A stretch of 64,000 nucleotides of DNA from an uncultured Verrucomicrobia subdivision 3 bacterium (GTDB lineage Bacteria; Verrucomicrobiota; Verrucomicrobiia; Limisphaerales; UBA11358): positions 1-64,000 of the forward strand of contig CAIQWB010000019.1 of NCBI GenBank assembly GCA_903875465.1, in the 5' to 3' direction. The notes under the pieces were generated by a model, which saw only the letters and a program-made list of their open reading frames with translations, was not told the DNA's origin and searched no databases. Positions within the stretch are counted from its first letter, which is position 1. Each line of letters opens with the position of its first letter. Both the position numbers and the translations under genes were made by a program. Below, in pieces: positions 46,356 to 64,000 of the stretch.

Positions 46356-48647
46356 TCAGGGGGAGGGTGGGGTCTGCCAGGGGACTTCGAAAATCCGGAC
46401 GGCTGTGCGAATGCCTTTCACCGTGACGGCCGGCAACTCGACACACGTGGCGGCGAGAGCCGGGTCGGCCCGCAGCAAGTGGCCGTGGGTGACTTCGCTG
46501 ATGATAATGCGTCCACTGCCCGAAACCCCTTCGAGGCGGCTGGCCAGGTTGACGTCACGGCCGAAAATCGTGTAATTGGCGATGTGTTCGCCAGAGCCCA
46601 TCAAACCCACGATAACCGTGCCGGTATTGATGCCCGTTCCCAATTGCAAGGCGCGCAGCGGTGGTTTGGGCGGCAATCCGCTGGCGATCCGCCCGCGGTT
46701 TTCCACTTCGCGAGTCTGGTTTTCCGCCTGGCGGGCTTCGTTTAACTGGCGGATGGCGCGCTGGGCATCGACGGCGGCGCGCACACAACCCAGGGCGTGT
46801 TCGGCGTTGCCCAGTGGGGCGCCCCAAAAGGCCATGACGCAATCGCCGATGTATTTATCGAGGGTGCCGCCATGGGCGATCACGGCATCAGCCACCTTGG
46901 TGAGATACATGTTCACGGTAGCGAGGGTTTCCCGGGCAGATTCATCGTAGCACTGTTCGGCGGCGGCCCCGGTGAGCTGATGCTGGCGGACATATTCCAC
47001 GGAGTTTTCCTGCATTTCATCCGTGAGGGTGGTGAACCCGCGGATGTCGGCAAAAAAGACGGTGACTTCACGGCGGCTGCCGACCATGGAAAATTTCTCC
47101 GAGGCCAGCAATTCGTTCACGACATCCGGCGAGACAATTTTGGAGAACACGGATTTGACGCGGCGCTTTTCGCGTTCTTCAATCATGACCAAATAAACAA
47201 TCAGCAAACCGTGTTCGACCAGCATGGCGCCCACGACGGGGTAGAACAGGGGCAGCCAGTAGCGCCAGGCAATATAGGCGAAAAAACAAACGGCCACATA
47301 TGCCAAGACCAGGCCGGCCACGGCAAGACTGGCGTAGATGATCCGGGTGCGCCATTGCCAAGTGACCCAAGCCACGGTGATGGCTAACAACGTCATGATG
47401 CCGAGTTCCGCGGATAGCGGGGCGCGATGGATGAAGTGGCCGGTGATGACCGAGTTGGCCACGTTCCAGTAAGTGCTCACGAGCAGCGTGTCGTTTTCCA
47501 GCGGAGTGGCGCCGCGGTCGGTCAGGTCATTGCCCTCAGCGGCGGAGCCAACGATGACCAACTTGCCGCGAAAATCATCGCGCAGGCCGTTAGTTTCGCC
47601 CTCGGCGCGATGTTTGTGCTGGTAGAGGAGTTGTTCGATGGGTTCCTGCTCAATACGGGGATCCGTATGGGTCAAACGCCAGTCCACATAGAAAAAGCCA
47701 TCCGCATCGATGGGGATGATTCGTTCAAGACCCGCACGGCCATGGAGGATGATGCGGCCATGGGGACGGTCGATGATGGCGTGGTTCAAGTCCAGATGGA
47801 GTTCCTGAGCCGCCAATTGGACGCCCATCTGCCAGATGCGTTCCTCAGAGAAAGCCGGGGCTTTGGCGGGCAATCCGGCGGGCAAGGGATCTCCCACCAA
47901 ATCAGCCAGTTGGAAGTTGTTCTCCGCATCCACCGGGAGGGTCACAATGTTGGTGGTGCCGTTTTGGGGCAGCAGAATCTTACCAGGCAGGAAGGCGGCC
48001 CGCTTTAAATCCAAGTCAATTTCCGGATCCGCCGCCGCCTTGGCAATGACGGGATGCCAGCGCCGTTGCAGGTGAAAAGCCCGGACGCGCCGCAGGGTGC
48101 CATCCGAGTCCTTTTCAGTGGAGACATCGCCGACAGCGAGGGCATTGGTGACGAACAAGTCGGGGGGGGAAATTTGCGGGGTGGCAGCGATGAGCACATT
48201 GCCGGACTGCCGGGAGGTGCGGGCAAAAAAATCGTCGGATTCCAGATATTTGCCATCGGGAAGTGCCACCATGGGGTGGTCGTTGCGCAATTCGCCGAAG
48301 AGGACGTCAAAACCCACCGCCCGGGCACCCTGGGCACTGAGTTCCTCCACCAAACGGCCGTAAACGAGGCGGGGCCAATAGAGGCCGTAATGATAATTCA
48401 AATAGCGGTCATTTTTGATCGCATCAATGCTGGAATCCTCCATGGCCACAAAAGCCAGATTGGTGGCGGCGGGGGCGGGAAAATGGAGGGCCATTTGCAC
48501 CCGCCAGTCGAAGGTAATTTGTTCCAAGCGCTCCAGCCCGGCCCAGCGGGGAAAGTAGTAAGGCAGCAGCAGCCGCACGGCAAACACGAGCAGCAAAACC
48601 ACCAGAGCCAGCAGGACTGGGGTGCGCTTAAGCGGTTGGAGCTTCAC
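46356..48647 (-). CDS. CHASE2-domain class III adenylate/guanylate cyclase
   Basis: A 763-residue membrane protein. After an N-terminal membrane helix (VLLALVVLLLVFAVRLLLPYY) comes a large extracytoplasmic CHASE2 sensor domain (about 40-400), then two to three membrane helices and a cytoplasmic class III cyclase domain: VTVFFADIRGFTTLTDEM (metal Asp), YIGDCVMAFWGAPL (second Asp), and INTGTVIVGLMGSG then YTIFGRDVNLASRLE. It should make cAMP or cGMP in response to an external signal. It follows the FecR gene. Two cyclic-nucleotide-binding-like domains occur in the protein at 56865-58613. Confidence 0.93.
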   Translation of the reverse strand: MKLQPLKRTPVLLALVVLLLVFAVRLLLPYYFPRWAGLERLEQITFDWRVQMALHFPAPAATNLAFVAMEDSSIDAIKNDRYLNYHYGLYWPRLVYGRLVEELSAQGARAVGFDVLFGELRNDHPMVALPDGKYLESDDFFARTSRQSGNVLIAATPQISPPDLFVTNALAVGDVSTEKDSDGTLRRVRAFHLQRRWHPVIAKAAADPEIDLDLKRAAFLPGKILLPQNGTTNIVTLPVDAENNFQLADLVGDPLPAGLPAKAPAFSEERIWQMGVQLAAQELHLDLNHAIIDRPHGRIILHGRAGLERIIPIDADGFFYVDWRLTHTDPRIEQEPIEQLLYQHKHRAEGETNGLRDDFRGKLVIVGSAAEGNDLTDRGATPLENDTLLVSTYWNVANSVITGHFIHRAPLSAELGIMTLLAITVAWVTWQWRTRIIYASLAVAGLVLAYVAVCFFAYIAWRYWLPLFYPVVGAMLVEHGLLIVYLVMIEEREKRRVKSVFSKIVSPDVVNELLASEKFSMVGSRREVTVFFADIRGFTTLTDEMQENSVEYVRQHQLTGAAAEQCYDESARETLATVNMYLTKVADAVIAHGGTLDKYIGDCVMAFWGAPLGNAEHALGCVRAAVDAQRAIRQLNEARQAENQTREVENRGRIASGLPPKPPLRALQLGTGINTGTVIVGLMGSGEHIANYTIFGRDVNLASRLEGVSGSGRIIISEVTHGHLLRADPALAATCVELPAVTVKGIRTAVRIFEVPWQTPPSP

Positions 48648-48738: not shown

Positions 48739-49671
48739 TCACGGATGCGTGGTATTTTGCTGCTGGCCACTGTCGGTCGGAATACCCACGCCGCCCGTCA
48801 CCGTGATGATGGGGCCGTTGACGGATTTTAAAACATCGGTGAGAGATCTTACAACGCCAGCGTCCAAGGTTTGCACAGCGGCCGTGGCGATGGTGTCCAG
48901 TTGCTGAATAATTCCTTGAATATCGGCAGCGCCACCAGCCGTCAAAGTACTGACGAGCTGGCTCACCAAGGTGGCGGTCAAATTAAAGGACTGGCCGGGG
49001 TTGAGAGTGACTTGAATGGGGGGAATCGGCTGGCCATTGGCGCCAGCGACGGGATTGCCATTGGCATCGGTGAGGGAGAAGGAAAGCCATACGGTGCCGC
49101 TGACGACCGCGCAGGAGGAGGAGCTGCCATCGGTGCTCAAATCCAATTCCGTGCCGCGAACGGCGGCCACGCCGTTGGGGATTTTGACAAAATATTCAGA
49201 GGACGGGCTGACTTTCTTGACGCTGGCCAGGATCCGACCTTTTTTGAGATTCAGAACGGCGTCGCTGATGGAAGTCGGATCGGATTCGGGAACGAGCAAT
49301 TTATCAATGCCCAGAGTGGTGTTCGGCCGCAGGCGAATCATGTTGTTTTCTCGAATGGGGGGAATATTGGGCGCAGGGTTGTCCTTGCCATTGATTTTCA
49401 TAACGGTCACGTTCTTCTCGGCCGGGGACTGGCCGATCAAAACGTCCACGATGGAGGCATCACCGGAGCGAAGAATAGCTCCGGCGGACAAATATTTGCC
49501 GACCAAGGCGGGAATGAAGGTGGTGCCACCATCCAAAGAATATTCCGCACGACCTTGAATGCGCACGATGGTGACGACGCCATTTTTGTCATTGTCAGCC
49601 TGGACGGCCAAATTGACCAATAAAATGGTGCCACTCAACACCGCAGCGAACAACAACTTATAAATTTTCAT
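48739..49671 (-). CDS. Secreted FecR-domain protein
   Basis: A 310-residue exported protein with a signal peptide (MKIYKLLFAAVLSGTILLVNL, cleaved near AVQA). A FecR-like domain spans about residues 30-200: GRAEYSLDGGTTFIPALVGKYL, GRILASVKKVSPSSEYFVKIPNGVAAVRGTELDL and VSGTVWLSF. The C-terminal part is Gln/Thr-rich and low in complexity. FecR domains in such proteins commonly occur beside CHASE2 cyclases, as here. The exact function is unknown; sensing or surface assembly is possible. Confidence 0.88.
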   Translation of the reverse strand: MKIYKLLFAAVLSGTILLVNLAVQADNDKNGVVTIVRIQGRAEYSLDGGTTFIPALVGKYLSAGAILRSGDASIVDVLIGQSPAEKNVTVMKINGKDNPAPNIPPIRENNMIRLRPNTTLGIDKLLVPESDPTSISDAVLNLKKGRILASVKKVSPSSEYFVKIPNGVAAVRGTELDLSTDGSSSSCAVVSGTVWLSFSLTDANGNPVAGANGQPIPPIQVTLNPGQSFNLTATLVSQLVSTLTAGGAADIQGIIQQLDTIATAAVQTLDAGVVRSLTDVLKSVNGPIITVTGGVGIPTDSGQQQNTTHP

Positions 49672-51664: not shown

Positions 51665-53635
51665 TTAATAGGCACGGATCGTGCCTTCGTGATTGACGGG
51701 TAAAAAGAGGCCGTTGCCCACGTACTGAAGTTCGATGGATGAGAGGGTGCCGCCCACGAGAAAGCCGTTGGTGCCGGTGGAGGAGGTGGAACCCTGGGAG
51801 GAGGTCCAGAGATTGCCGTCGCTGGCGGCGGCCACCAATTTGCTGCCGTCGGCAGAAGAAGCCACCGCTGTCCATTGGGCGTTCGTGGCCCCGCTGCGCT
51901 GGAGCCAGGTGGAGCCAGAGTCAGCCGAGGTAAACACATAACCGGGGCCACTGTAGGCGGCGATGAGGCGGGAGCCATCGGCCGAGGAGGCCACGGCTTT
52001 CCAGGCGACGGAATTCAATTGCGTCTGGGGATTCCAGGTTACCCCGCCATCCGCGGAGGTATAAATACTGCCGCCATTGACGGTGGCGACCAAGTTGGAG
52101 CCATTGGCCGAGGAGGCGACGGCGGACCAATTGTGCAGTCCGGCGGAGGGGGTGCTCGCACCGGAGACATAAATGTAGCCACCCGCACCACCACCAGTGG
52201 AGCAGGCAATTAACTTGGACCCGCTGGCGTTGCAGGCGAGTCCGGTAAAGAGGATGCTGCCACTCGTATAAGGAACCCAAGAAGAACCAGAACCGGAATT
52301 CACCGAGGTATAAATATAACCGTTATAACTGGCCACAAACATTTTGGTGCCATCCGCCGAACAGGCACACGCAATCCACGGGGCGCTGAAAAGCACCGGG
52401 GTCCAAGAAGCGCCGGAATTGACGGATACATAAACCAGGCCGAAATGCCCAGCGGTATCCCCGACCGTGGCAATGAGATGGGTGCCGTCGGCGGAAGAGG
52501 CCACGGAAGACCAATAGGCAGCACCCAAACCGGGGGCGGCGACGAAGCTGGCACCGGAATTGACCGAAATGGCGACGGTGCCCGTGGTGGCACTGCTGGT
52601 GGCGGCGATCAGACGGGTGCCATCCGCCGAGGAGGCCACACCGGTAAAATTGCCCGAGCCCGGGCCGAAGCGTTGCACCCAGTTCATGCCGATGCTGCTG
52701 GCGAGATTACCCGCCAGAATTTGCTGGCCGGCGTTTTGGGACAAAATCCAGCCGGCCGCCCCGACCCCGGCGATCTTAAACGTGTCGCCGATACTGGGGC
52801 TGGGGGGGAGTGTGATGGTGACGGCGGTGGTGTTGTTCGTAACGATAAAGCCTAAATTCGAACTGGCTTGGGCGGCCGTCCCATTGACCGTGAGCCAGAA
52901 AAAGGCACCGGGTACGTTGGTGAGGCCATGCCCACTGCCGGTGTACTGCACGGCGGTGAGATTGCCCAAAAAGTTATTACTACTGGCACTGAGCAGCGGC
53001 ACGTTGGGGGAAAGCGTGGCATCCGGGAGGATTCCGGTGAGGTTGGGAGCGGGAATGCCCGTTAAACCCGAGCCATTACCGTTAAAGGTGCCGGCAAAGA
53101 CATTTGCCGCGTTGGGGGCGGTTACGACCCCTAGAAACTGGTTGGAGGCGGTGAATGTCTGGTTGCTGCTGAGCAGCACCACATTCGTGGAAAGCCGGCT
53201 CACGGGGAGCGTGCCGGTAATATTGGTCGCCGGCAGGGGGAGCGAGAGGGATTGCGCGTTGGAGGCGGTGATGGACTGGATGGCGTAGGGGACGGAGTTC
53301 AGGAGTTGCAGGGGGGAAAGGGCGTTGTAGGCGTTGGTATTGCCGTAGGGACGCACGGCGATTTCGAGCCAGCGGGGGTTGCCGTTAAATCCGGCCGCGC
53401 CCAAGTCCACGGCGGTGGAGAACACCCCATTGGTCACGCCCACCGGGGCATTCGTCACCGGGCCGGCGACCTGGTTGGTGGCCCCGTCAAACAGGCGGAA
53501 GCGCAAATCGTAGTTCCCGGTCACCGCAGTGCCGGCGCTGGCGAGCCGACCCTGATAGGTGAAGGCCGTGAGCTGGGCGGAGGCCACGTGAACCCCGAGG
53601 GCGAGCGCCCCGACCAGGCTGAATTTGAAATTCAT
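51665..53635 (-). CDS. Secreted surface protein with BNR/Ycf48-like repeats
   Basis: A 656-residue protein from the ATG at 53635 (MNFKFSLVGALALGVHVASA, signal peptide). The N-terminal module FTYQGRLASAGTAVTGNYDL then LSPLQLLNSVPYAIQS resembles that of the protein at 61128. A middle region (about 130-300) has phage-tail-fibre-like repeats. From about 300 there are seven or more repeats of the type SADGSKLVAA...GYIYTSVNSG...W, each about 42 residues, forming a beta-propeller-like fold. A surface-exposed or adhesin role is likely; the function is not known. It shares an operon with the O-antigen ligase-like gene. Confidence 0.85.
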   Translation of the reverse strand: MNFKFSLVGALALGVHVASAQLTAFTYQGRLASAGTAVTGNYDLRFRLFDGATNQVAGPVTNAPVGVTNGVFSTAVDLGAAGFNGNPRWLEIAVRPYGNTNAYNALSPLQLLNSVPYAIQSITASNAQSLSLPLPATNITGTLPVSRLSTNVVLLSSNQTFTASNQFLGVVTAPNAANVFAGTFNGNGSGLTGIPAPNLTGILPDATLSPNVPLLSASSNNFLGNLTAVQYTGSGHGLTNVPGAFFWLTVNGTAAQASSNLGFIVTNNTTAVTITLPPSPSIGDTFKIAGVGAAGWILSQNAGQQILAGNLASSIGMNWVQRFGPGSGNFTGVASSADGTRLIAATSSATTGTVAISVNSGASFVAAPGLGAAYWSSVASSADGTHLIATVGDTAGHFGLVYVSVNSGASWTPVLFSAPWIACACSADGTKMFVASYNGYIYTSVNSGSGSSWVPYTSGSILFTGLACNASGSKLIACSTGGGAGGYIYVSGASTPSAGLHNWSAVASSANGSNLVATVNGGSIYTSADGGVTWNPQTQLNSVAWKAVASSADGSRLIAAYSGPGYVFTSADSGSTWLQRSGATNAQWTAVASSADGSKLVAAASDGNLWTSSQGSTSSTGTNGFLVGGTLSSIELQYVGNGLFLPVNHEGTIRAY

Positions 53636-53893
53636 ATGATGATTATTAACATACTTTGGCTCAGGCACAAGCCACGAGCGGCGCGCGCGGGGGGGAATTG
53701 CCACGGGGGGAATGGCGAGGGCTTTTCGGTGGGCCGGCTGGGGGGGCGAGCAAAGTCACTGTTTCAGGTTGGGGATAATTCGTCATGCATGGCGAATTCA
53801 GCCGATAATTCATGATTAATCGCCAGCAATGACGCATTGACCCGAAACCAATCCTGGCAAATAGGGCCTACGCCGTGCTTAACCGGCCCGTGC

Positions 53894-54287: not shown

Positions 54288-55523
54288 CTAAGGCTGCAAT
54301 ATCCCGGCAAACTGCCCCAGCGTGACCCCAAATCCAGCCGGTTCGAAATCCGGGATGGATTGGGCGGCTTTAAATAGTTCGTTGAGCTTGTCGCTGGCGG
54401 AGGGCGGGGCCGGTGGGCTTTGGGCCAGCAATAAGCGATCGAGGGCCAGGACCAGGCGTTCGGCCTGGCGGGCGGGCAGTTCGCCGGTGACGGGGGTGGC
54501 AAAATCGGCGGTGGTTCCGGCGAGGCGGGCCAGCATGGCGGGGGCCAGGGTGGCGGGCCAGTTCAGCGTGGCGGCGGTGAGGGCGGCGGTGTCGGCGGCG
54601 CGCTGCGCAGTCCGGAAATTATCGGGGGTGGCCGCGGAGGCCAGGGTGCCGACACCGGGCAGGGCCGGGTCCAGGCCATTGAGTTTTTGGAGCAACCAGG
54701 CCAGGGCCTGCCAGCGGGCGATAAGGTGCGGGTCGGACTGCGGTTCGCGACCGAGTTGCCAGCTCAATTCGCGCAAGGCCACGGCCTGGCCCACGTACCA
54801 GGTTTGGGCGCGGTTCCAGTTGGTGGCTTCCTGCCAGTGGCGGGGTTCGGCGGCACTCTGGCCATCCAGTTCAAAGGTGAGTTCGGGGTGTCCGGCCGAG
54901 AGCAGGGGCAATTCCACGGTTTGGTGGCAGGCCACGCAGGTGTTGGCGCGGACGTAGAGATTCGACAAATCGCGCAGGCCGGCAAACACGCGGTCGGCAT
55001 GGCTCCAGTCGTGGCGGGTATGGGCGCGCAGCCAGTTTTCGGCCGGGCCATGACAGGATTCGCAGGTCACTCCCTCCGCGGCATTAAAGCCCGGGCCGCG
55101 CAGGCCGGCGGGCACGGCTTGCAGGGGCGCATGGCAGGTTGTGCAGCGGGCGTCGCTGGTGGGATCGCTGAGGTGCAGGGCGTCGGCGATTTGACGGGAG
55201 CGGGCGGTGGCCAGGGTGGCGACCGGGCGTTGGGAATGGTAGTCTTTCAAGGACCACACCAGATGCTGGTTCTGGTGCTCGCCGCCGCCGCCGTGGCAGG
55301 AGGAACTGGCGCAGGAGGGGGCGCCGAGGTATTTGGCGGAGACGCCCGTGGGGGCGGCGGACTGGGCGGGGAGGGTGCCAGGGGCGACCAGCGCGAGCAG
55401 GGTTACCAGCCCAAGCGCGCCCCAAATGGCAGCGGGACGCGGCCGCAACGAGCAGGCGAGGGCACCGGCGCCACAGGGGAGCTGATCGAGCGGCCGGTGG
55501 CCAAGATTAAAGAGTTTACTCAC
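54288..55523 (-). CDS. Exported multiheme cytochrome c (c554-like, four heme motifs)
   Basis: A 411-residue protein if the GTG at 55523 is the start; a TTG at 55562 would overlap the divergent gene. A hydrophobic segment (AIWGALGLVTLLALVAPGTLPAQ) acts as signal peptide or anchor. Heme motifs are CASSSCH (CX4CH), CTTCH, CESCH and CVACH. The spacing and the YLGAPSCASSSCHGG start resemble tetraheme cytochrome c554-type proteins. The CX4CH form is unusual but occurs in this group. The C-terminal 150 residues are helical and lack hemes. It is divergent from the four-gene electron-transfer operon, and likely works with it. Confidence 0.85.
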   Translation of the reverse strand: MSKLFNLGHRPLDQLPCGAGALACSLRPRPAAIWGALGLVTLLALVAPGTLPAQSAAPTGVSAKYLGAPSCASSSCHGGGGEHQNQHLVWSLKDYHSQRPVATLATARSRQIADALHLSDPTSDARCTTCHAPLQAVPAGLRGPGFNAAEGVTCESCHGPAENWLRAHTRHDWSHADRVFAGLRDLSNLYVRANTCVACHQTVELPLLSAGHPELTFELDGQSAAEPRHWQEATNWNRAQTWYVGQAVALRELSWQLGREPQSDPHLIARWQALAWLLQKLNGLDPALPGVGTLASAATPDNFRTAQRAADTAALTAATLNWPATLAPAMLARLAGTTADFATPVTGELPARQAERLVLALDRLLLAQSPPAPPSASDKLNELFKAAQSIPDFEPAGFGVTLGQFAGILQP

Positions 55524-55556
55524 GGCTATAAATTCGTTAATTGAGTGACGGTTCAA

Positions 55557-56861
55557 ATGCAATCTTTAATTGAATACTTGCGCAGTGCCACGGGTGGCAG
55601 TTTGAGCCTCGGGGTGGGGGTGACCTTGACCGTGGTGCTGGGCCTATGGGCCTTGCTCGAAAGTTTGCGCGCGGTGGGCCGGCTGTATGGTGACCGCCAG
55701 CAGCAGCAGGCCAGCCGGCAAAAATTGCGGGCGGAGGTGCAGGAAGTGAAACTGCGCTGCCGGGAACTGGAACAATCCCAGGCGGGTTGGAATGGCAGCC
55801 GGAAATTTACCGTCTTCAAAAAAGTCGCGGAGTGCGAGGACGTCAATGCGTTTTACCTCAAACCGCATGACGGGCGGCCGCTGCCGGCCTTCAAACCCGG
55901 TCAGTACCTGACGTTCCAACTGGATTTGCCGGGCCGTGACAAGCCGTTGATCCGCTGCTATTCCCTCTCCGACAGTCCGCATCAGAAAGATTATTATCGG
56001 GTCACCATCAAGAAGGAGAAAGCGCCCCCGGACAAGCCGGAATGGACGCACGGGGCCGGTTCCAGTTATTTCACCGACGTGGTGAAAGAGGGGGATATCC
56101 TGAATGTGAAGGCACCCACCGGGCATTTCTTTCTGGATATGACCCGCATGAACCCGATCGTGCTGATTGCGGGCGGGGTGGGCATCACGCCGATGTTGTG
56201 CATGGCCAATGCCATTGCCGCGAGCGGTTCCAAGCGGGAGGCGTGGTTTTTCTTCGGGGTGCGCAACCAGCGCGAGCATATTCACAAGGCGGAGTTGGAA
56301 ACGCTGGCGGCGGAACATGAGAACATTCATTTGCACGTCTGCTACAGCCGTCCGAGCCCCGGTGAGGTGAAAGGCAAAGATTATCAACACGAGGGCCGGG
56401 TGAGCATTGAATTGCTCAAGGAATTGCTGCCTTCGAATAACTTTGAATATTATTTGTGCGGCAACGGGGCCTTCATGAAGAGCATCACGGATGGCCTGGA
56501 AGCCTGGGGCGTGCCGGAAAAGGATGTGCATTTTGAGGCGTTTGGACCGGCCACGGTGAAGAAAAAAACGGTCGCGCCCACCGCCTCGGAAACCGTCCAC
56601 CTGGCCAAATTGGAAGTGACCTTCAGCCGCACTGGCAAAACCGTGCGCTGGGAGCCTTCCGCCGGCAACCTGCTGGATTTTGCCCGTTCGCAAAATGTCA
56701 AAATCGACTCGGGCTGTTGCGCCGGCAGTTGCGGTTCCTGTTCGGTGGCCATCAAATCCGGCGCGGTGGATTACATTACCCCGCCCACCAGCACCCCCGA
56801 GGCGGGCACGTGCCTCACGTGTGTCTGCCGGCCCAAGGGCAATTTGGTGATCGACGCCTAG
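55557..56861 (+). CDS. NqrF-like flavo-ferredoxin reductase (membrane-anchored)
   Basis: A 434-residue protein from the ATG at 55557. One N-terminal membrane helix (LSLGVGVTLTVVLGLWALL) and a short coiled segment (QASRQKLRAEVQEVKLRCRE) precede a ferredoxin-NADP reductase module: YLTFQLDLPGRDKPLIRCYS (FAD) and IVLIAGGVGITPMLCMAN (NAD(P)H). The C-terminal ferredoxin has the CX4CX2C...C pattern in CCAGSCGSC and GTCLTCVC. It should take electrons from NADH or NADPH and pass them to the next gene's Fe-S clusters. This is the reverse order of domains to NqrF, where the ferredoxin is N-terminal. Confidence 0.92.
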   Translation: MQSLIEYLRSATGGSLSLGVGVTLTVVLGLWALLESLRAVGRLYGDRQQQQASRQKLRAEVQEVKLRCRELEQSQAGWNGSRKFTVFKKVAECEDVNAFYLKPHDGRPLPAFKPGQYLTFQLDLPGRDKPLIRCYSLSDSPHQKDYYRVTIKKEKAPPDKPEWTHGAGSSYFTDVVKEGDILNVKAPTGHFFLDMTRMNPIVLIAGGVGITPMLCMANAIAASGSKREAWFFFGVRNQREHIHKAELETLAAEHENIHLHVCYSRPSPGEVKGKDYQHEGRVSIELLKELLPSNNFEYYLCGNGAFMKSITDGLEAWGVPEKDVHFEAFGPATVKKKTVAPTASETVHLAKLEVTFSRTGKTVRWEPSAGNLLDFARSQNVKIDSGCCAGSCGSCSVAIKSGAVDYITPPTSTPEAGTCLTCVCRPKGNLVIDA

Positions 56862-56864
56862 TTC

Positions 56865-58613
56865 ATGCCTGCCATGCCTGAAGTCGCCTCCATACTCGAA
56901 CGACCGCAGCGCTGGGATGCGCCGTTTAGCCCGGACATGACGGAGGTGGACGTGGACCGGCTGCTGACCATCGCCCCGTTCCGGCAAATGGCGGCGGATA
57001 AATTTCCCAAGCGCACGCCCCTGCGCGACATCCTGGCAAATGACACGCGCATCCTGAGTTTCCGGCAGGGCGAAATCATCATGCGCCAGGGGGATTATGG
57101 CACCTCGGCTTACTTGATTTTGTCCGGCGCGGCGCGGGTGATCCAAAAGCCCGGGCTGCCGGCCAGCTTGCTGGGCCGGAAAGAGCCGGTGAAAAAGGGC
57201 GTGTTTCAAACCCTCGCGCAATTGTGGTCGGCCCGCCGGCCGCCGGAGAGTTACCCACGCTCCCTGTGGGGCGGTTCCAAGGGGGTGGGCACGCGCCAGA
57301 CGGAAAATCAGGATGCCCGGGTGTTTTTGCAGGACGTGCCCCGCGTGCTGAATGAGCACCGGACGGACCTGATGCGCGATGGCGAGTTCTTCGGCGAAAT
57401 TGCCGCGCTGAGCCGCATGCCCCGCACCTCCACGATTTATGCGGAGGGCGAGGGGACGATTCAATTGCTGGAGATCCGGTGGCAGGGGCTGCGGGATTTG
57501 ATGAAGTACGATGATGCCCTCAAGCAGCACATCGATAAAATCTACCGGGAGCGCGCGTTGAATTCCTATCTCAATGCCCACACGCTCTTTCGCCACCTGA
57601 CCGAGGACCAGCGCCATCAGGTGGCCAGCCAGATTGAATTTGCCACCTACGGGGAATATGACTGGTCCGGCGACTACAAACGCCTGGCCCAGACCGGCAC
57701 GGTGCAGCCGGAGAAGGAGCCGATCATCGTGCAGCAGGGCGATTATCCCAACGGCGTGGTGCTGTTGCGCGCCGGGTTTGGGCGGGTGGGCCAGAAATTT
57801 GGCGCCGGGGAGCGCACGCTGAATTACATTGGGGCGGGCGTGGCCTTTGGCCTGCAGGAAATCGCCCATAATTGGCGGAACCCCAGCGCTCCGGTTAATA
57901 TGCAATACACCCTGCGGGCGATTGGCTACACGCATTTACTGGTGGTACCCACGCGGGTGATGGAACAAATCGTGCTGCCTTCCCTGCCCGCCCAGGAATT
58001 GCCGGCCGCAGTCGAACCGGTGGTGGCCCCCACCGACAACCTGGCGGAGGATTTTCCGGCTCTGGAGCAACGGGACAAAATCAGCGCGGAAACCCTGGAA
58101 TTTCTCACCTCCAACCGGTTCTTCAATGGCACGGCCTCCATGGTCATTGACCTGGAACGCTGCACGCGCTGTGATGATTGTGTGCGGGCCTGTGCCGCCA
58201 CCCACGACAACAACCCCCGCTTTCTTCGCCATGGACCGGCCAGCGGCCGCCTGATGGTGGCCAACGCCTGTATGCATTGCGCCGATCCGGTGTGCATGAT
58301 TGGCTGTCCCACCGGGGCGATTCATCGCGAATCCTTTGCCGGCCAGGTGGTGATCAACCCGCTGACGTGCGTGGCCTGCAAGGCGTGCTTTAATAATTGC
58401 CCTTACGGGGCGATTCGGATGGTGGATATTCGCGATGAAAGCGGCCAGTTCGTGCTGGATCAGGATTTAAAGCCCTTGAGCAAGGCCACCAAGTGCGATC
58501 TGTGTGTGGAAAATCGCGGTGGCCCGGCGTGTGAACGCGCCTGCCCGCACGGTGCCCTCGCGCGCATCAACTTGAACAACCTGGATGCCCTGGCCAAATG
58601 GTTGAACCGATGA
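56865..58613 (+). CDS. Cyclic-nucleotide-binding-like / tetra-[4Fe-4S] ferredoxin fusion protein
   Basis: A 582-residue protein. An N-terminal cNMP-binding-like domain (about 35-225) has ILSFRQGEIIMRQGDYGTSAY and DGEFFGEIAALSRMPRTST (phosphate-binding cassette FGE..AL....RT); a second, weaker one follows (about 245-370, EPIIVQQGDYPNGVVLL). Residues about 420-580 hold four cluster motifs of the DmsB/NrfC type: CTRCDDCVRAC, CMHCADPVCMIGCP, CVACKACFNNCP and CDLCVENRGGPACERACP. It is probably a soluble or peripheral electron carrier whose activity may be regulated by cyclic nucleotide. It is 3 nt after the reductase gene and overlaps the next gene. Confidence 0.93.
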   Translation: MPAMPEVASILERPQRWDAPFSPDMTEVDVDRLLTIAPFRQMAADKFPKRTPLRDILANDTRILSFRQGEIIMRQGDYGTSAYLILSGAARVIQKPGLPASLLGRKEPVKKGVFQTLAQLWSARRPPESYPRSLWGGSKGVGTRQTENQDARVFLQDVPRVLNEHRTDLMRDGEFFGEIAALSRMPRTSTIYAEGEGTIQLLEIRWQGLRDLMKYDDALKQHIDKIYRERALNSYLNAHTLFRHLTEDQRHQVASQIEFATYGEYDWSGDYKRLAQTGTVQPEKEPIIVQQGDYPNGVVLLRAGFGRVGQKFGAGERTLNYIGAGVAFGLQEIAHNWRNPSAPVNMQYTLRAIGYTHLLVVPTRVMEQIVLPSLPAQELPAAVEPVVAPTDNLAEDFPALEQRDKISAETLEFLTSNRFFNGTASMVIDLERCTRCDDCVRACAATHDNNPRFLRHGPASGRLMVANACMHCADPVCMIGCPTGAIHRESFAGQVVINPLTCVACKACFNNCPYGAIRMVDIRDESGQFVLDQDLKPLSKATKCDLCVENRGGPACERACPHGALARINLNNLDALAKWLNR

Positions 58614-59431
58614 AGCGCTTTCGCAAACAATTTTGGCGGGGAACGGTGGTTTTCGTACTGGCCGGCTGGCTGGCGCTCGAACTCCATCAGACGTGGCAGG
58701 CACGGTTGCCGAACGAGACCTTTATCACGGGCTGGGTGCTGTTTGGCTGCATGCTCCTGCTGACGCTGCTCAACGCGCGGAAGAAACTGCCCTTTCTGCC
58801 GTTGCTCCGGGCGGAGACCTGGCTGCAAGTCCACATTTACGGCGGCTTTTTCACCGTCATCCTGTTTTTGATTCACCTCCATTTCCGGGTGCCGCACGGC
58901 GGCTTTGACCTGACCCTGACGGGCTTGTTTGGCATCGTGACCATTAGCGGCATCGTGGGATTGATCTTCAGCCGAGTCCTGCCGCGGCGGCTAAAAGTGC
59001 GGGGGGGTGAGGTGCTTTTTGAAAAGATTCCGGCCATTCGCCACAGTATGAAACGCCAGGCGGAGAACCTGGTCTTGGGCAGCCAGGCGGCTTCACCGGT
59101 GCTCGCCGAATTTTACGCCCGCCGGCTGGCCGGGTTTTTTGCCGGACCGGAGAATTTCTGGCTGCATTTGTTGTTGGAATCCCGCCAGCCGATCAATGAA
59201 TTGCTGGCGGACATGACGGATCTGCGACGGCTGTTGAAGGAAACCGATGCCCGGGTGCTGGATCAACTGATGGACCTGGCCCGGCAAAAGGATGGGCTGG
59301 ACTATCATTATTCGCTGCAAAAGACCCTGAAAATGTGGTTGTTTGTGCATTTGCCGTTCACCTACGGGCTGATGCTCTTCGTGCTCTGGCACATTGTGGT
59401 GGTGTTTGCCTTTTCCGGAGGTGCCCAATGA
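58610..59431 (+). CDS. Integral membrane protein of the electron-transfer operon (possible cytochrome b)
   Basis: A 273-residue protein from the ATG at 58610, which overlaps the previous stop (ATGA). About five membrane helices are seen: VVFVLAGWLALEL, ITGWVLFGCMLLLTLL, VHIYGGFFTVILFLIHLHF, LFGIVTISGIVGLIFS and FTYGLMLFVLWHIVVVFAF. His residues lie in two of them (VHIY..IHLHF and VHLPF..LWHIVVV), consistent with b-type heme ligation, though this is inference. The middle (about 130-240) is a soluble helical domain. It probably conducts electrons or quinol-linked reducing equivalents between the ferredoxin protein and the multiheme cytochrome. Confidence 0.82.
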   Translation: MKRFRKQFWRGTVVFVLAGWLALELHQTWQARLPNETFITGWVLFGCMLLLTLLNARKKLPFLPLLRAETWLQVHIYGGFFTVILFLIHLHFRVPHGGFDLTLTGLFGIVTISGIVGLIFSRVLPRRLKVRGGEVLFEKIPAIRHSMKRQAENLVLGSQAASPVLAEFYARRLAGFFAGPENFWLHLLLESRQPINELLADMTDLRRLLKETDARVLDQLMDLARQKDGLDYHYSLQKTLKMWLFVHLPFTYGLMLFVLWHIVVVFAFSGGAQ

Positions 59432-61086
59432 GCGAGCAACTGCCCGCGCCGGAATTTGACGCCCAGAATTATGTGCGACCGAACCAGGCCTGGACCTGTG
59501 GGCACGCGGCGGAAGGCCGGTGCTGTCCGCTGGGGCCGGATCGCTGGGGCCGGTGCCAGGCCACGTTTGAGTGCCGGCCGGTTTTGGAAATCCGGCCGGG
59601 TGAAACGAAGGGGCGCTGGAAGTGCACCCGCACCGGCGGCCCCTGTGAAACCGGGCCGCGCCCGGATGGCAGTTGTTGCCAGCCCATTCCCCCCTGTTCG
59701 CCGGTGCCCAGCCTGCGCTGGCAGCGGGGCCGGGTCACACTGGCGGTGGTGGTGGCGTGCCTGGCGGGTCTCTTGATCGTTTTGGGCAGCCCGCCACTGC
59801 GGAACCGGTTTTTTAATCCCGGCACCCTTTCCCAGGCGCACAGGGGCGCGGCTTTTGCCGCACTGGCGGCCACCAATCATCTGAACCCGGGTTGCGGGGC
59901 CTGCCATGTGGCCGGGAACGCGGGACCGAATGGGATGGTGCGCACGGCGTTCGCGGCCGAACCCGCGCCCTTGGAGATGGTGAAGTTATTTTCAGCCACT
60001 CCGGCGGAAGTCACGGCGTTGGATGGCCATTGCGAAACCTGTCATACCGGCCACTCCTTCCACCAGCCCATGGTGAACACCATTGCGTGTACTTACTGTC
60101 ACCAGGAGCATCAAGGCCCCCGGATGGCGTCCGTGGGGGATGCCGGCTGCGCATTCTGCCATGGGAATGCCGCCACCATGGCGGCGGCCGGGGCGGCCGG
60201 GGCAAAACTGCCCGTTGAGGCCTTTCATTTGGGCATGGTCACCCACGGAGTGACGTTCCCGGCGCCGCACCCGGCGGCGGGCTTTACGGCGGTCGTCCAT
60301 GGTTTTGCCGAGGATCACCCCCAATTTCGGCACGTGACCGACCATTGGCGCGATCCGGACACCCTCAAGTTTAATCATGCCCTGCATCTGACCGGCACAA
60401 CCATCCCCGCCCTGCCGAATGGCCGGAAACTGGATTGCACCTTTTGCCATCAACCTGATGCCGGGGGAGCGTATATGCGGCCGGTCCAGTTTGAACAGAA
60501 CTGCCGGGTGTGCCATTCCTTGCAATTTGATCCGGCCACCCCCGGCCTGACCCTGCCACATGGCCGGACGGAACAAGTGGTGGCCTTTTTGCACAGTTTA
60601 CCCAAGCAATATGCGGATTTTGCCAGCCGCCAGGGCATCGCCGCCGAGCAGCAGCAGAATTTTGTGGCGGGGAAACTGGCGCAATTGCAAGGCGCGGTGG
60701 GGTCGGGTGATGCTTTAATGCAGCAGGTGTTCCTGAGCACGGCCAAAACCGGACCGTTGACGCACGTCGGCACCGTCACCGGGGCGACCCGCCCGGTGTT
60801 TCCGGGGTGTGCGGTGTGCCACGAAGTGCAGGTCAGCAGCGCAAGTGGTTTCCAAATCACGCCGCCGGTTCTTTTTGAGCGCTGGCTGACGCACGCCTCA
60901 TTTAACCATGCCAAACATCCTGGCGTGAGCTGCGAACAATGCCATGCGGCGCGGACCAGCAAGGACACGGCGGATGTGCTGCTGCCCGCGCGGGAAACCT
61001 GCGCCACGTGTCACAGCCCGAAAGGCGGGGTGGCCAACACTTGTGCGACCTGCCACGCCTACCATAAACGGCTCCCGCAGAGGTAA
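59428..61086 (+). CDS. Membrane-anchored decaheme cytochrome c with Cys-rich N-terminus
   Basis: A 552-residue protein from the ATG at 59428, overlapping the previous stop (ATGA). The first 95 residues contain ten cysteines (TCGH, RCCPLG, RCQATFEC, KCTRTGGPC, GSCCQPIPPC) before a membrane helix (TLAVVVACLAGLLIVLGSP). The rest carries ten CXXCH motifs: CGACH, CETCH, CTYCH, CAFCH, CTFCH, CRVCH, CAVCH, CEQCH and two CATCH. It resembles cytochrome c3/NrfH-like multiheme chains. It should carry electrons outward into the periplasm; the Cys-rich head would remain in the cytoplasm. Confidence 0.92.
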   Translation: MSEQLPAPEFDAQNYVRPNQAWTCGHAAEGRCCPLGPDRWGRCQATFECRPVLEIRPGETKGRWKCTRTGGPCETGPRPDGSCCQPIPPCSPVPSLRWQRGRVTLAVVVACLAGLLIVLGSPPLRNRFFNPGTLSQAHRGAAFAALAATNHLNPGCGACHVAGNAGPNGMVRTAFAAEPAPLEMVKLFSATPAEVTALDGHCETCHTGHSFHQPMVNTIACTYCHQEHQGPRMASVGDAGCAFCHGNAATMAAAGAAGAKLPVEAFHLGMVTHGVTFPAPHPAAGFTAVVHGFAEDHPQFRHVTDHWRDPDTLKFNHALHLTGTTIPALPNGRKLDCTFCHQPDAGGAYMRPVQFEQNCRVCHSLQFDPATPGLTLPHGRTEQVVAFLHSLPKQYADFASRQGIAAEQQQNFVAGKLAQLQGAVGSGDALMQQVFLSTAKTGPLTHVGTVTGATRPVFPGCAVCHEVQVSSASGFQITPPVLFERWLTHASFNHAKHPGVSCEQCHAARTSKDTADVLLPARETCATCHSPKGGVANTCATCHAYHKRLPQR

Positions 61087-61127: not shown

Positions 61128-64000
61128 ATGAAAAAAAATGTATGTGGCTTAGTCGCCCTGGCCCTGATGGCCGGGGTTTTAATTTTTCCAGCAACGGTTA
61201 AGGCCCAGGGCACGGCGTTCAGTTATGAGGGACGGTTAAACAGCTCCAGTGGGCCCGCCACCGGCAGTTATGATTTGCTCTTCGCGCTCTACACGACCAA
61301 CAGCGGTGGCTTCCTGATCGCCGGCCCGGTCACCAACCGGGCCACGGGGGTGACCAATGGTTTGTTTACGGTCACCCTGGATTTCGGTCCCGGCGTGTTC
61401 AACGGTTACAATTACTGGCTGGAGATCGGCGTGCAGACCAATGGCGGCAACGGTTTCACGCTGCTCAGCCCCCGCCAGCGTCTGCTACCCGTGCCCTATG
61501 CCATGTTCGCCACCGCGGCCGGCACACTGTCGGGCACCCTGCCCGCCAGCCAGATCACCGGCACGGTGCCGTTGACCCAAATTCCAAGCGGAGTCATTAC
61601 CAATGGCCAGAGCGGGGTGAATTTTAACGGCACGTTTTCCGGCAACGGCATTGGGCTGACGAACGTGCCGGTGAATTCGCTGGCGTGGGTGACCAATTAT
61701 CCGGTGGTGGCGTGGGGCGACAATGATTTTGCCGAGGCCACCGTGCCGCCGGGCGTGAGCAATGCGGTCGCGGTCGCGTCCGGTTATGCGCATACCCTGG
61801 CGTTGCTCCCCAACGGCACCGTGACGGCCTGGGGCCAGAACACGGCGGGCGACACCACCGTTCCCGCCGGATTAAGCCAGGTGACCCAGATCGCCGCCGG
61901 TGCCTTTCACAGTCTGGCTTTAAAAAGCAACGGCATGGTGGTGGGCTGGGGTGATCCAACGAATGGGCAAATTGCGATTCCGGCCAGTTTAAGCAATGTG
62001 GTGGCCGTGGCGGCCGGGGGGTATCACAGCCTCGCCCTGAAAAGCAACGGCACGGTGGCGGCCTGGGGCTACGGATATCAAGGCCAGACGAATGTGCCAG
62101 CGGGCCTGACCAACGTCACGGCGATTGCCGGCGGCTATCTTTACAGTCTGGCCTTGAAGAACCATGGCCCGGTGGTGGCGTGGGGCGACAATACTTTCGG
62201 CCAGACCTCCGTGCCGGCGGGCCTGAGCAACGTGGTGGCCATTGCCGCCGGATCCGTGCACGCCCTGGCCCTCAAGAGCAATGGCACGGTGGTGGCCTGG
62301 GGCGATAACTCGCACGGTCAGAGCAGTGTGCCGGCCGGCTTGAGCAATGTGGTGGCCGTGGCGGCGGGCGCTTATCAAAGTGTGGCGTTGCAGGCCAATG
62401 GCATGGTTACTGTCTGGGGGGACAACTCTTATGGCCAGCTTAACCTGCCGGTGGGCTTGAGCAACGTGGTGGCCCTGGCCAGCGGTTGCATGGCTTATGA
62501 TGTGGTGGTCATTCAGCAACAAGCCCTTTCGCCGTTTGCGGCCCTGCTGACGGCGGGGAATAATATTTTCCCGGGCAACCTGCAAATTGGGGGCACCATG
62601 GCGGCGGTTTATTTTACCGGTGGTGGTGGGGGCTTGACGGAACTGGATGCATCGCACCTCGCCACCGGCACGGTGCCGCTGGCGCAATTGCCGCCGCAAT
62701 TGTTGACCAACGGGGCCAGCGGGGTCACGCTCGCCGGCTCTTGGACCGGGAATCTCAATGGCAATGCGACCACGGCCACGACAGCCAGCTCAGCCCTGCA
62801 AGCCAGCAGTGTGGTGCCGGGGATTGTGCTGGCGAATGAATTTATTACGAATTCGATTCTGGCGGGCAATGGCGCCGGCCTGACCAACCTGGCCTATGCC
62901 AATCTTACCGGGGCACCGGTGATTCCCTCAACCAACGGCTTTGTCACGGCGGCGGTGACCAATGGTCTGGCGACGATAAACTTTGTGACTTCACAGGGTT
63001 ATCTGACCAGTGCCAACGCAGCGAATGCCGCGCTGGCCACCAATGTGGTGTCCGGAATCAGCATCACGAATGCTTTTATAACCAACTCCGTATTCGCCGG
63101 TGACGGCAGTGGTTTAACCAGAGTCAGTGTGAGTGCGGCGAATATTTCCGGTGCTTTATCCACGGGACAACTGCCATTCGGGGTGGTGATTAGTGGATCC
63201 AACGGGGTGAATATCAACGGCACGCTGACGGGCACCTTGATTGGCAAAGCCACCAGCGCGACGAGCGCGGGGGTGGCGAGCAATCTGGTGGCGGGCATCG
63301 GCATCACGAATGCTTTTATTACGAATTCCATCCTGGCGGGCAACGGGGCCGGCCTGACCAACCTGGCCTACGCCAATCTTACCGGGGCACCGGTGATTCC
63401 CTCGACCAACGGCTTCGTGACGGCGGCGGTCACCAATGGTCTGGCGACGATAAATTTTGTGACTTCGCAGGGTTATTTGAGCAGTGCCAACGCAGCGAAT
63501 GCCGCACTGGCCACCAATGTGGTGTCCGGAATCAGCATCACCAATGCCTTCATTACCAACTCCGTATTCGGGGGCAATGGCGCCGGGTTGACGAATGTCA
63601 CGGTGAGTGCCGGAAATATCCTGGGCGTGCTCCCGGCCGCACAACTGCCGGCGGGTTTGCTCACCAACGGCGCGAGTGGCGTGACACTGGCGGGCGTATT
63701 CAATGGGAACGGGGGCGGCTTGACCAATGTGAGTATCAATGCGGCGGCAATTTCCGGAATCCTGTCTGCGGGACAACTGCCATCCGGGGTGGTGATTAGT
63801 GGATCCAACGGGGTGAATATCAACGGCACGCTGACGGGCACCTTGATCGGCAAAGCCACCAGCGCGACGAGCGCGGGAGTGGCGAGCAATTTGGTGGCGG
63901 GTATCGGCATCACGAACGCTTTTATTACGAATTCCATCCTGGCGGGCAACGGGGCCGGCCTGACCAACCTGGCCTACGCCAATCTTACCGGCACACCGGT
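61128..64000 (+). CDS. Giant secreted repeat protein (RCC1-like and tail-fibre-like), runs off the window
   Basis: Starts at ATG 61128 after AAGGA; open to the window end (957 codons so far), so partial. Signal peptide MKKNVCGLVALALMAGVLIF, then a FSYEGRLNSSSGPATGSYDL module resembling that of the protein at 51665-53635. About residues 190-460 hold seven or so RCC1-like repeats (VAIAAGSVHALALKSNGTVV then AWGDN.HGQ..VPAGLSN), about 39 residues each. After residue 480 come long tail-fibre-like repeats (ITNAFITNSILAGNGAGLTN, NGVNINGTLTGTLIGKATSA). Two DNA segments 606 nt apart are about 97% identical. Probably a surface adhesin or fibre; the C-terminus is not seen. Confidence 0.9.
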   Translation, partial: MKKNVCGLVALALMAGVLIFPATVKAQGTAFSYEGRLNSSSGPATGSYDLLFALYTTNSGGFLIAGPVTNRATGVTNGLFTVTLDFGPGVFNGYNYWLEIGVQTNGGNGFTLLSPRQRLLPVPYAMFATAAGTLSGTLPASQITGTVPLTQIPSGVITNGQSGVNFNGTFSGNGIGLTNVPVNSLAWVTNYPVVAWGDNDFAEATVPPGVSNAVAVASGYAHTLALLPNGTVTAWGQNTAGDTTVPAGLSQVTQIAAGAFHSLALKSNGMVVGWGDPTNGQIAIPASLSNVVAVAAGGYHSLALKSNGTVAAWGYGYQGQTNVPAGLTNVTAIAGGYLYSLALKNHGPVVAWGDNTFGQTSVPAGLSNVVAIAAGSVHALALKSNGTVVAWGDNSHGQSSVPAGLSNVVAVAAGAYQSVALQANGMVTVWGDNSYGQLNLPVGLSNVVALASGCMAYDVVVIQQQALSPFAALLTAGNNIFPGNLQIGGTMAAVYFTGGGGGLTELDASHLATGTVPLAQLPPQLLTNGASGVTLAGSWTGNLNGNATTATTASSALQASSVVPGIVLANEFITNSILAGNGAGLTNLAYANLTGAPVIPSTNGFVTAAVTNGLATINFVTSQGYLTSANAANAALATNVVSGISITNAFITNSVFAGDGSGLTRVSVSAANISGALSTGQLPFGVVISGSNGVNINGTLTGTLIGKATSATSAGVASNLVAGIGITNAFITNSILAGNGAGLTNLAYANLTGAPVIPSTNGFVTAAVTNGLATINFVTSQGYLSSANAANAALATNVVSGISITNAFITNSVFGGNGAGLTNVTVSAGNILGVLPAAQLPAGLLTNGASGVTLAGVFNGNGGGLTNVSINAAAISGILSAGQLPSGVVISGSNGVNINGTLTGTLIGKATSATSAGVASNLVAGIGITNAFITNSILAGNGAGLTNLAYANLTGTP

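Follow-up and report, generated by a model that had tools for sequence, protein, structure and literature searches.

A conserved verrucomicrobial operon predicted to encode an NAD(P)H-linked transmembrane redox complex with a cyclic-nucleotide-binding ferredoxin

We analyzed a 64,000-nucleotide window of a contig (C19) from an uncultured Verrucomicrobia subdivision 3 bacterium (order Limisphaerales) and focused on a group of redox genes within it. Four of these, here called A to D, form an operon on the forward strand (55557–61086), while a fifth, T, diverges from the region upstream of them (54288–55562, minus strand, delimited by its open reading frame). Gene A (55557–56861) starts with an ATG at 55557 and is separated by a 3-nucleotide gap from B (56865–58613), which shares an ATGA overlap with C (58610–59431) at 58610–58613; C in turn shares one with D (59428–61086) at 59428–59431. 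Overlaps of 4 nucleotides recur in relatives, at the B/C junction in 47 of 83 cases and at the C/D junction in 52 of 81. An earlier note on this DNA had described the coordinates, gap, overlaps and gene contents, and every particular that could be checked was correct. This includes the divergent four-haem cytochrome: T encodes a cytochrome c554-like tetrahaem cytochrome c (PF13435, E 6e-9) with three CXXCH motifs and one CX4CH, a combination found in most of its 65 aligned homologues, some having four CXXCH instead.

The product of A is a membrane-anchored NAD(P)H-FAD-[2Fe-2S] reductase. A single N-terminal transmembrane (TM) segment (residues 15–33) precedes domains for FAD and NAD, and a plant-type [2Fe-2S] domain forms the C terminus (Pfam FAD_binding_6, NAD_binding_1 and Fer2). 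Across 78 homologues, the RCYS motif for FAD, the GGxGxTP motif for NAD and the four cysteines of the cluster vary by at most one substitution. This membrane-anchored plan is common to subunit F of the Na+-NQR and related NADH reductases; however, the [2Fe-2S] domain of A is C-terminal, and no other Nqr or Rnf subunit is encoded at the locus. Identification of A as NqrF was rejected, its score for the nqrF equivalog being 111.6 bits against a cut-off of 295.

Gene B fuses two cyclic-nucleotide-binding domains (CNBDs) to a ferredoxin with motifs for four [4Fe-4S] clusters, as judged from matches to the Pfam cNMP_binding and Fer4 families and from alignments. It exceeds the gathering score of PF00027 (75.2 versus 27.5 bits), and its nearest named relative, 82% identical, is also from an uncultured Verrucomicrobia subdivision 3 bacterium. 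The two cNMP_binding regions precede 16 cysteines in four clusters (58137–58559), all of which are 99–100% conserved in an alignment of 85 B sequences. The earlier note had raised the question of whether the phosphate-binding cassette retains its Arg and Glu, and the two domains differ in this respect. In CNBD1 (residues 53–223, 57021–57533), which contains an internal insertion, the cassette FGEIAALSRMPRTST occupies residues 176–190, and Glu178 and Arg187 are kept in 85/85 sequences; the Glu and Arg of its FGE-(8)-R pattern are invariant to ~28% identity, a protein from Sphingobium included. CNBD2 (residues 284–370, 57714–57974; PF00027, 29.2 bits in a genome search) is degenerate, its residues 320–358 lacking an FGE..R cassette in the columns of the same alignment. 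The cyclic-nucleotide pocket of CNBD1 is apparently intact at the level of sequence.

Gene C encodes a diheme cytochrome b with five TM helices. Its haem ligands, H75/H89 and H247/H261, are invariant in 82/82 homologues, and each pair has the 14-residue spacing seen for the haem ligands of bc1-complex cytochrome b. An AlphaFold model of C (predicted local distance difference test, pLDDT, 92.2) has long helices that fit five TM spans and places the His pairs on the third and last of these (helices 68–89 and 211–271). By sequence, no Pfam family matches C at E<=0.01, though members of its family give weak, sub-threshold matches to DUF4405, cytochrome b561 and Ferric_reduct; its profile found nothing above chance among PDB sequences, and DNA similarity revealed no relative in E. 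coli genomes. A fold search returned only helical bundles, b561 (4o6y, Z 7.4) and SpNOX (8qq7, Z 6.3) being two of them, and Foldseek gave no match to the model at E<=0.001.

The last gene of the operon, D, specifies a decahaem cytochrome c (Pfam Cytochrom_c3_2) held in the membrane by one TM segment (residues 103–121). Ten CXXCH motifs are present in 76/76 complete homologues, and the NapC/NirT domain of CymA-type quinol oxidases was not found (PF03264, E<=0.01). Ahead of the TM segment, a cytosolic N-terminal domain without a Pfam match (residues 24–90, 59497–59697) consists of two four-Cys repeats, whose eight cysteines are conserved in 97% of 77 sequences; these tandem repeats possibly form a zinc or Fe-S site. 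With C and D defined, the order put forward in the earlier note, a wire from NAD(P)H, FAD and [2Fe-2S] through four [4Fe-4S] clusters and two b haems to ten periplasmic c haems, is supported by ligands conserved in ~80 homologues.

The four genes travel together. A search of Genome Taxonomy Database representatives gave 367 matches, and among the best 80 of these loci A is present in 79, C in 79, D in 77 and all four genes in 76; the one locus without A lies on a contig that begins inside B. The matches are mainly from Verrucomicrobiota, with others from Planctomycetota, Latescibacterota, Zixibacteria and Uabimicrobium, host names here being the depositors' titles for metagenome-assembled genomes, several of which are plainly wrong. 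A chance or purely local gene order was rejected, the order being conserved across phyla, and the prospect entertained in the earlier note that the genes might occur elsewhere in isolation did not materialize. Closer to the source organism, 11 of 36 congeners (this genome counted) carry a full-length B, which is also present in 6 more of the sampled families of the order. The module is sparse across the phylum, with 11 carriers in an even sample of 289 Verrucomicrobiota genomes. Two genomes (G057 and G052; loci L044 and L045) carry, besides the verrucomicrobial copy, a second, planctomycete-like copy ordered A-T-B-C-D beside a gene for a five-haem protein, which suggests horizontal transfer.

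A rearranged version of the system resides on a Sphingobium plasmid. There, B has a pyridine-nucleotide oxidoreductase domain fused to its N terminus in place of gene A, C matches b561 (E 1e-4), and an FHA-like domain replaces the Cys-rich N terminus of D; the plasmid also encodes a decahaem protein with LVIVD repeats. From this rearrangement, the constant core comprises the CNBDs with four [4Fe-4S] clusters, the diheme cytochrome b, the multihaem cytochrome c and the LVIVD decahaem, whereas the entry module for NAD(P)H and D's cytosolic domain can be exchanged. The Sphingobium version thus supports the notion that a flavoprotein feeds B, and that cytosolic control domains, be they CNBD, FHA or Cys-rich, are a design feature.

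The LVIVD decahaem protein is part of a recurrent outer-membrane pair. In many genomes, D is directly followed by a gene for an ~800-residue protein without a Pfam match and then by one for a ~1,300-residue protein with ten CXXCH motifs and LVIVD repeats, and in the complete genome of IMCC26134 (locus L091) the run A-B-C-D-barrel-decahaem is uninterrupted. For the ~800-residue protein, modelling predicts a beta barrel of ~18 strands, with the alginate porin AlgE as its closest match (Foldseek E 6e-13). An MtrB-like 26-strand barrel is disfavoured, the low-confidence model being 18-stranded and AlgE-like and MtrB being absent among the matches listed, which does not in itself exclude it. In our genome the barrel and decahaem genes adjoin one another on contig C39, together with genes for HbpS-like and NHL-repeat proteins; judging from gene order in a related locus (L050), C39 may follow C19. 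A run of masked bases stands at the end of C19 (L149:12417–13350, near 72.4–73.4 kb of the contig). In this genome and many others, a predicted outer-membrane barrel is encoded beside a multihaem cytochrome, as in porin-cytochrome conduits of the MtrAB/PCC type.

Inheritance ties this pair to the inner-membrane module. In a sample of the order, the decahaem gene is present in 17/17 genomes with B and in 4/42 without it (Fisher p 2e-11); the latter include G058, with its own divergent B-C-D set, and a genome that is 57% complete. In the phylum sample, B and the decahaem gene coincide in 6 genomes where ~0.3 would be expected (p 5e-8). Three genomes (G071, G225 and G316; loci L153, L154 and L155) possess the barrel, decahaem and HbpS-like genes without A to D. 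The decahaem protein is 62–89% identical across Verrucomicrobia and 45% identical to the alphaproteobacterial plasmid protein. In Planctomycetota and Latescibacterota, A to D are instead preceded by a second, unrelated-looking pair of genes, for another multihaem protein and another barrel-like protein of 471 residues. The strongest evidence that electrons are meant to exit the periplasm is this attachment of two different outer-membrane pairs to a single inner-membrane module.

A candidate source of the nucleotide lies nearby. Beyond the window, 7.7 kb downstream of D, the contig encodes an adenylate/guanylate cyclase with a CHASE2 domain (68817–70937; PF00211 and PF05226), and in most congeners inspected D is followed by genes for an outer-membrane protein, a FecR protein and this CHASE2 cyclase. 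At a threshold of E <= 1e-100, the cyclase is present in 10/11 congeners with B and 0/25 without (p 4e-8). In two genomes (G008 and G011) it accompanies the barrel and decahaem genes on a contig without A to D, which indicates that it tracks the system and not merely the physical neighbourhood. The catalytic motifs TDLR, LGDQ and (V/I)NEAAR, containing the two metal-binding Asp and the transition-state Asn and Arg, are conserved in 12 homologues. A His takes the place of the usual base-recognition Lys, so the choice between ATP and GTP, and hence between cyclic AMP (cAMP) and cyclic GMP, is not fixed by the sequence. A second CHASE2-type class III cyclase, with a canonical DKYIGD motif, and a FecR-like protein paired with it are encoded ~6 kb upstream of T (46356–48647 and 48739–49671, both minus strand), such that two of the three class III cyclases in this genome flank the operon; locus L063 likewise has a second cyclase upstream.

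The set does not correspond to a named complex. Consistent with the earlier note, which could not assign the complete set a name, A, B and D reach no curated NCBIfam cut-off. The operons for Hmc/Tmc/Qrc/Dsr-type complexes of sulfate reducers encode a four-[4Fe-4S] protein together with a diheme cytochrome b of the membrane and a periplasmic multihaem cytochrome c. A to D contain the same three kinds of component, and HmcB, QrcC and DsrO are weak matches of B. On the cytosolic side, however, A to D have an NAD(P)H/FAD/[2Fe-2S] reductase where those complexes have an HdrD-like or CISM subunit, and CNBDs are placed on the Fe-S protein. Membership was rejected on scores that fell far short of every NCBIfam cut-off (DsrO 46 versus 200, HmcB 33 versus 420, QrcC 32 versus 400 and QrcA 22 versus 180 bits). 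Our literature searches, which did not cover subscription literature, found no paper combining a cyclic-nucleotide-binding domain with multihaem cytochromes, and searches on CNBDs plus 4Fe-4S or on LVIVD cytochromes returned no description of the system.

We infer that A to D form one transmembrane redox complex. In such a complex, A would take hydride from NAD(P)H and pass electrons through FAD to its [2Fe-2S] center, B would relay them via its four [4Fe-4S] clusters, the two stacked b haems of C would carry them across the inner membrane and the ten periplasmic c haems of D would receive them. T, the outer-membrane barrel and the giant decahaem protein would then hand electrons on to what is probably an extracellular acceptor, for instance humics or Fe(III). 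CNBD1 would bind a cyclic nucleotide and thereby open or close the path, the nucleotide being made, at least in this genus, by the linked CHASE2 cyclase. We assign a probability of about 0.5 to this account as a whole, a cyclic-nucleotide-gated route from NAD(P)H through periplasmic haems to an outer-membrane haem system, being mostly right. Electron transfer at the inner membrane, with NAD(P)H as the donor and periplasmic haems as the recipients, is very likely, and onward passage as far as the outer membrane or past it is somewhat favoured. Direct gating by the nucleotide has slightly under an even chance; the electron carrier may be regulated by its CNBD, a reading that the co-inherited cyclase strengthens. 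Rather doubtful is the most specific version, in which the CHASE2 cyclase responds to a signal in the periplasm and the nucleotide it makes, by binding the ferredoxin subunit, switches an NAD(P)H-driven surface current post-translationally and without the quinone pool.

Several observations weigh against this gated, outward-directed account. The genome's own barrel and decahaem genes are on C39 and not on the contig with A to D. The barrel model has a mean pLDDT of 56.5 (70–90 in the barrel strands), and its likeness is to AlgE and not to a known porin-cytochrome. In the phylum sample, the decahaem gene occurs without B in 3 genomes and B without the decahaem gene in 5, and the co-occurrence p values overstate independence, as shared ancestry of the genomes inflates significance. 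The cyclase link is seen in this genus only, the exception being a 28%-identical cyclase near locus L122, and elsewhere another cyclase would have to serve B. Finally, the three class III cyclases of this genome are accompanied by ~8 CNBD proteins, and B need not be the sole target of the cyclases.

This last point bears on a competing view of B that we consider a substantial possibility, albeit short of even odds: the CNBDs could be structural or docking elements that sense no cyclic nucleotide, with the neighbouring cyclase serving a transcription factor. Ligand-free CNBDs are known, the cassette of CNBD2 is lost, CNBD1 contains a long insertion and other CNBD proteins in the genome could be the cyclase target; yet the Glu and Arg of CNBD1 are invariant throughout the alignment, and the cyclase is co-inherited within the genus. 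The destination of the electrons can be read differently too. Export might serve something other than extracellular respiration, the LVIVD decahaem specifically reducing a single substrate, in the periplasm or at the surface, or acting as a redox-balancing or protective device. The identity among decahaem proteins is high for a mere surface conductor, the hosts include Sphingobium, which is usually aerobic, and an HbpS-like protein is a constant neighbour. However, the barrel adjoins the decahaem gene in every case inspected, and a purely periplasmic enzyme would leave it unexplained; we regard this alternative as unlikely. Less probable still is the same wiring run backward, in which an extracellular or periplasmic donor, such as Fe(II) or reduced humics, would supply electrons for A to reduce NAD(P)+, with the membrane potential across the two b haems as the driving force. 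On paper, the chain of cofactors is symmetric, and outer-membrane haem systems are known to work both ways (PMC6295460), but no oxidase-type or carbon-fixation partner is seen in the neighbourhood, and reduction of NAD(P)+ from such donors is strongly uphill.

Two repeat proteins are encoded around the redox genes. Downstream of D, a secreted protein of 1,877 residues, whose repeats include RCC1-like ones among others, extends from 61128 to the end of the window at 64000 on the plus strand and on to contig position 66761 (L149:1128–6761); in this genome it separates D from the cyclase, and it is absent from that position in locus L050. Upstream of T, a secreted protein with BNR/sortilin-like repeats (51665–53704, minus strand) looks related to it.

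A to D constitute a real, conserved module, a putative transmembrane redox complex with multihaem partners and not a named one; its direct control by a cyclic nucleotide is less certain. The three described families of inner-membrane gateways for extracellular electron transfer, CymA, CbcL/MtrH/MtoC and ImcH, are quinol oxidases/quinone reductases and multihaem cytochromes, all quinol-linked (Zhong and Shi 2018, PMC6295460). Like these, A to D would pass inner-membrane electrons to periplasmic haems, but their donor is likely NAD(P)H, acting through FAD and Fe-S centers, so that, if our reading is true, the module would draw on NAD(P)H where the described gateways draw on quinol. He et al. 2017 (PMC5615132) proposed porin-multihaem systems with octahaem partners in Verrucomicrobia, IMCC26134 among the carriers, and gave the step at the inner membrane no name beyond "ET in IM"; their text mentions neither the A–D module nor a CNBD. 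Those clusters, like ours, pair a barrel with a multihaem cytochrome, but as their periplasmic partner is an octahaem, the barrels may belong to different families. The module, widespread in uncultured freshwater and soil Verrucomicrobia, is a candidate for the step left blank (PMC5615132). In Shewanella, the membrane-bound class III cyclase CyaC and cAMP-CRP control respiration by transcription (PMC4830989 and references therein), which likewise ties such a cyclase and cAMP to multihaem respiration; in the system proposed here, by contrast, the binding domain sits on the electron carrier itself and not on a transcription factor. If CNBD1 is active, cyclic-nucleotide control would be exerted on an electron carrier, as opposed to a gene, kinase or channel, and the proteins concerned, available also in the sequenced isolate IMCC26134, are directly testable.

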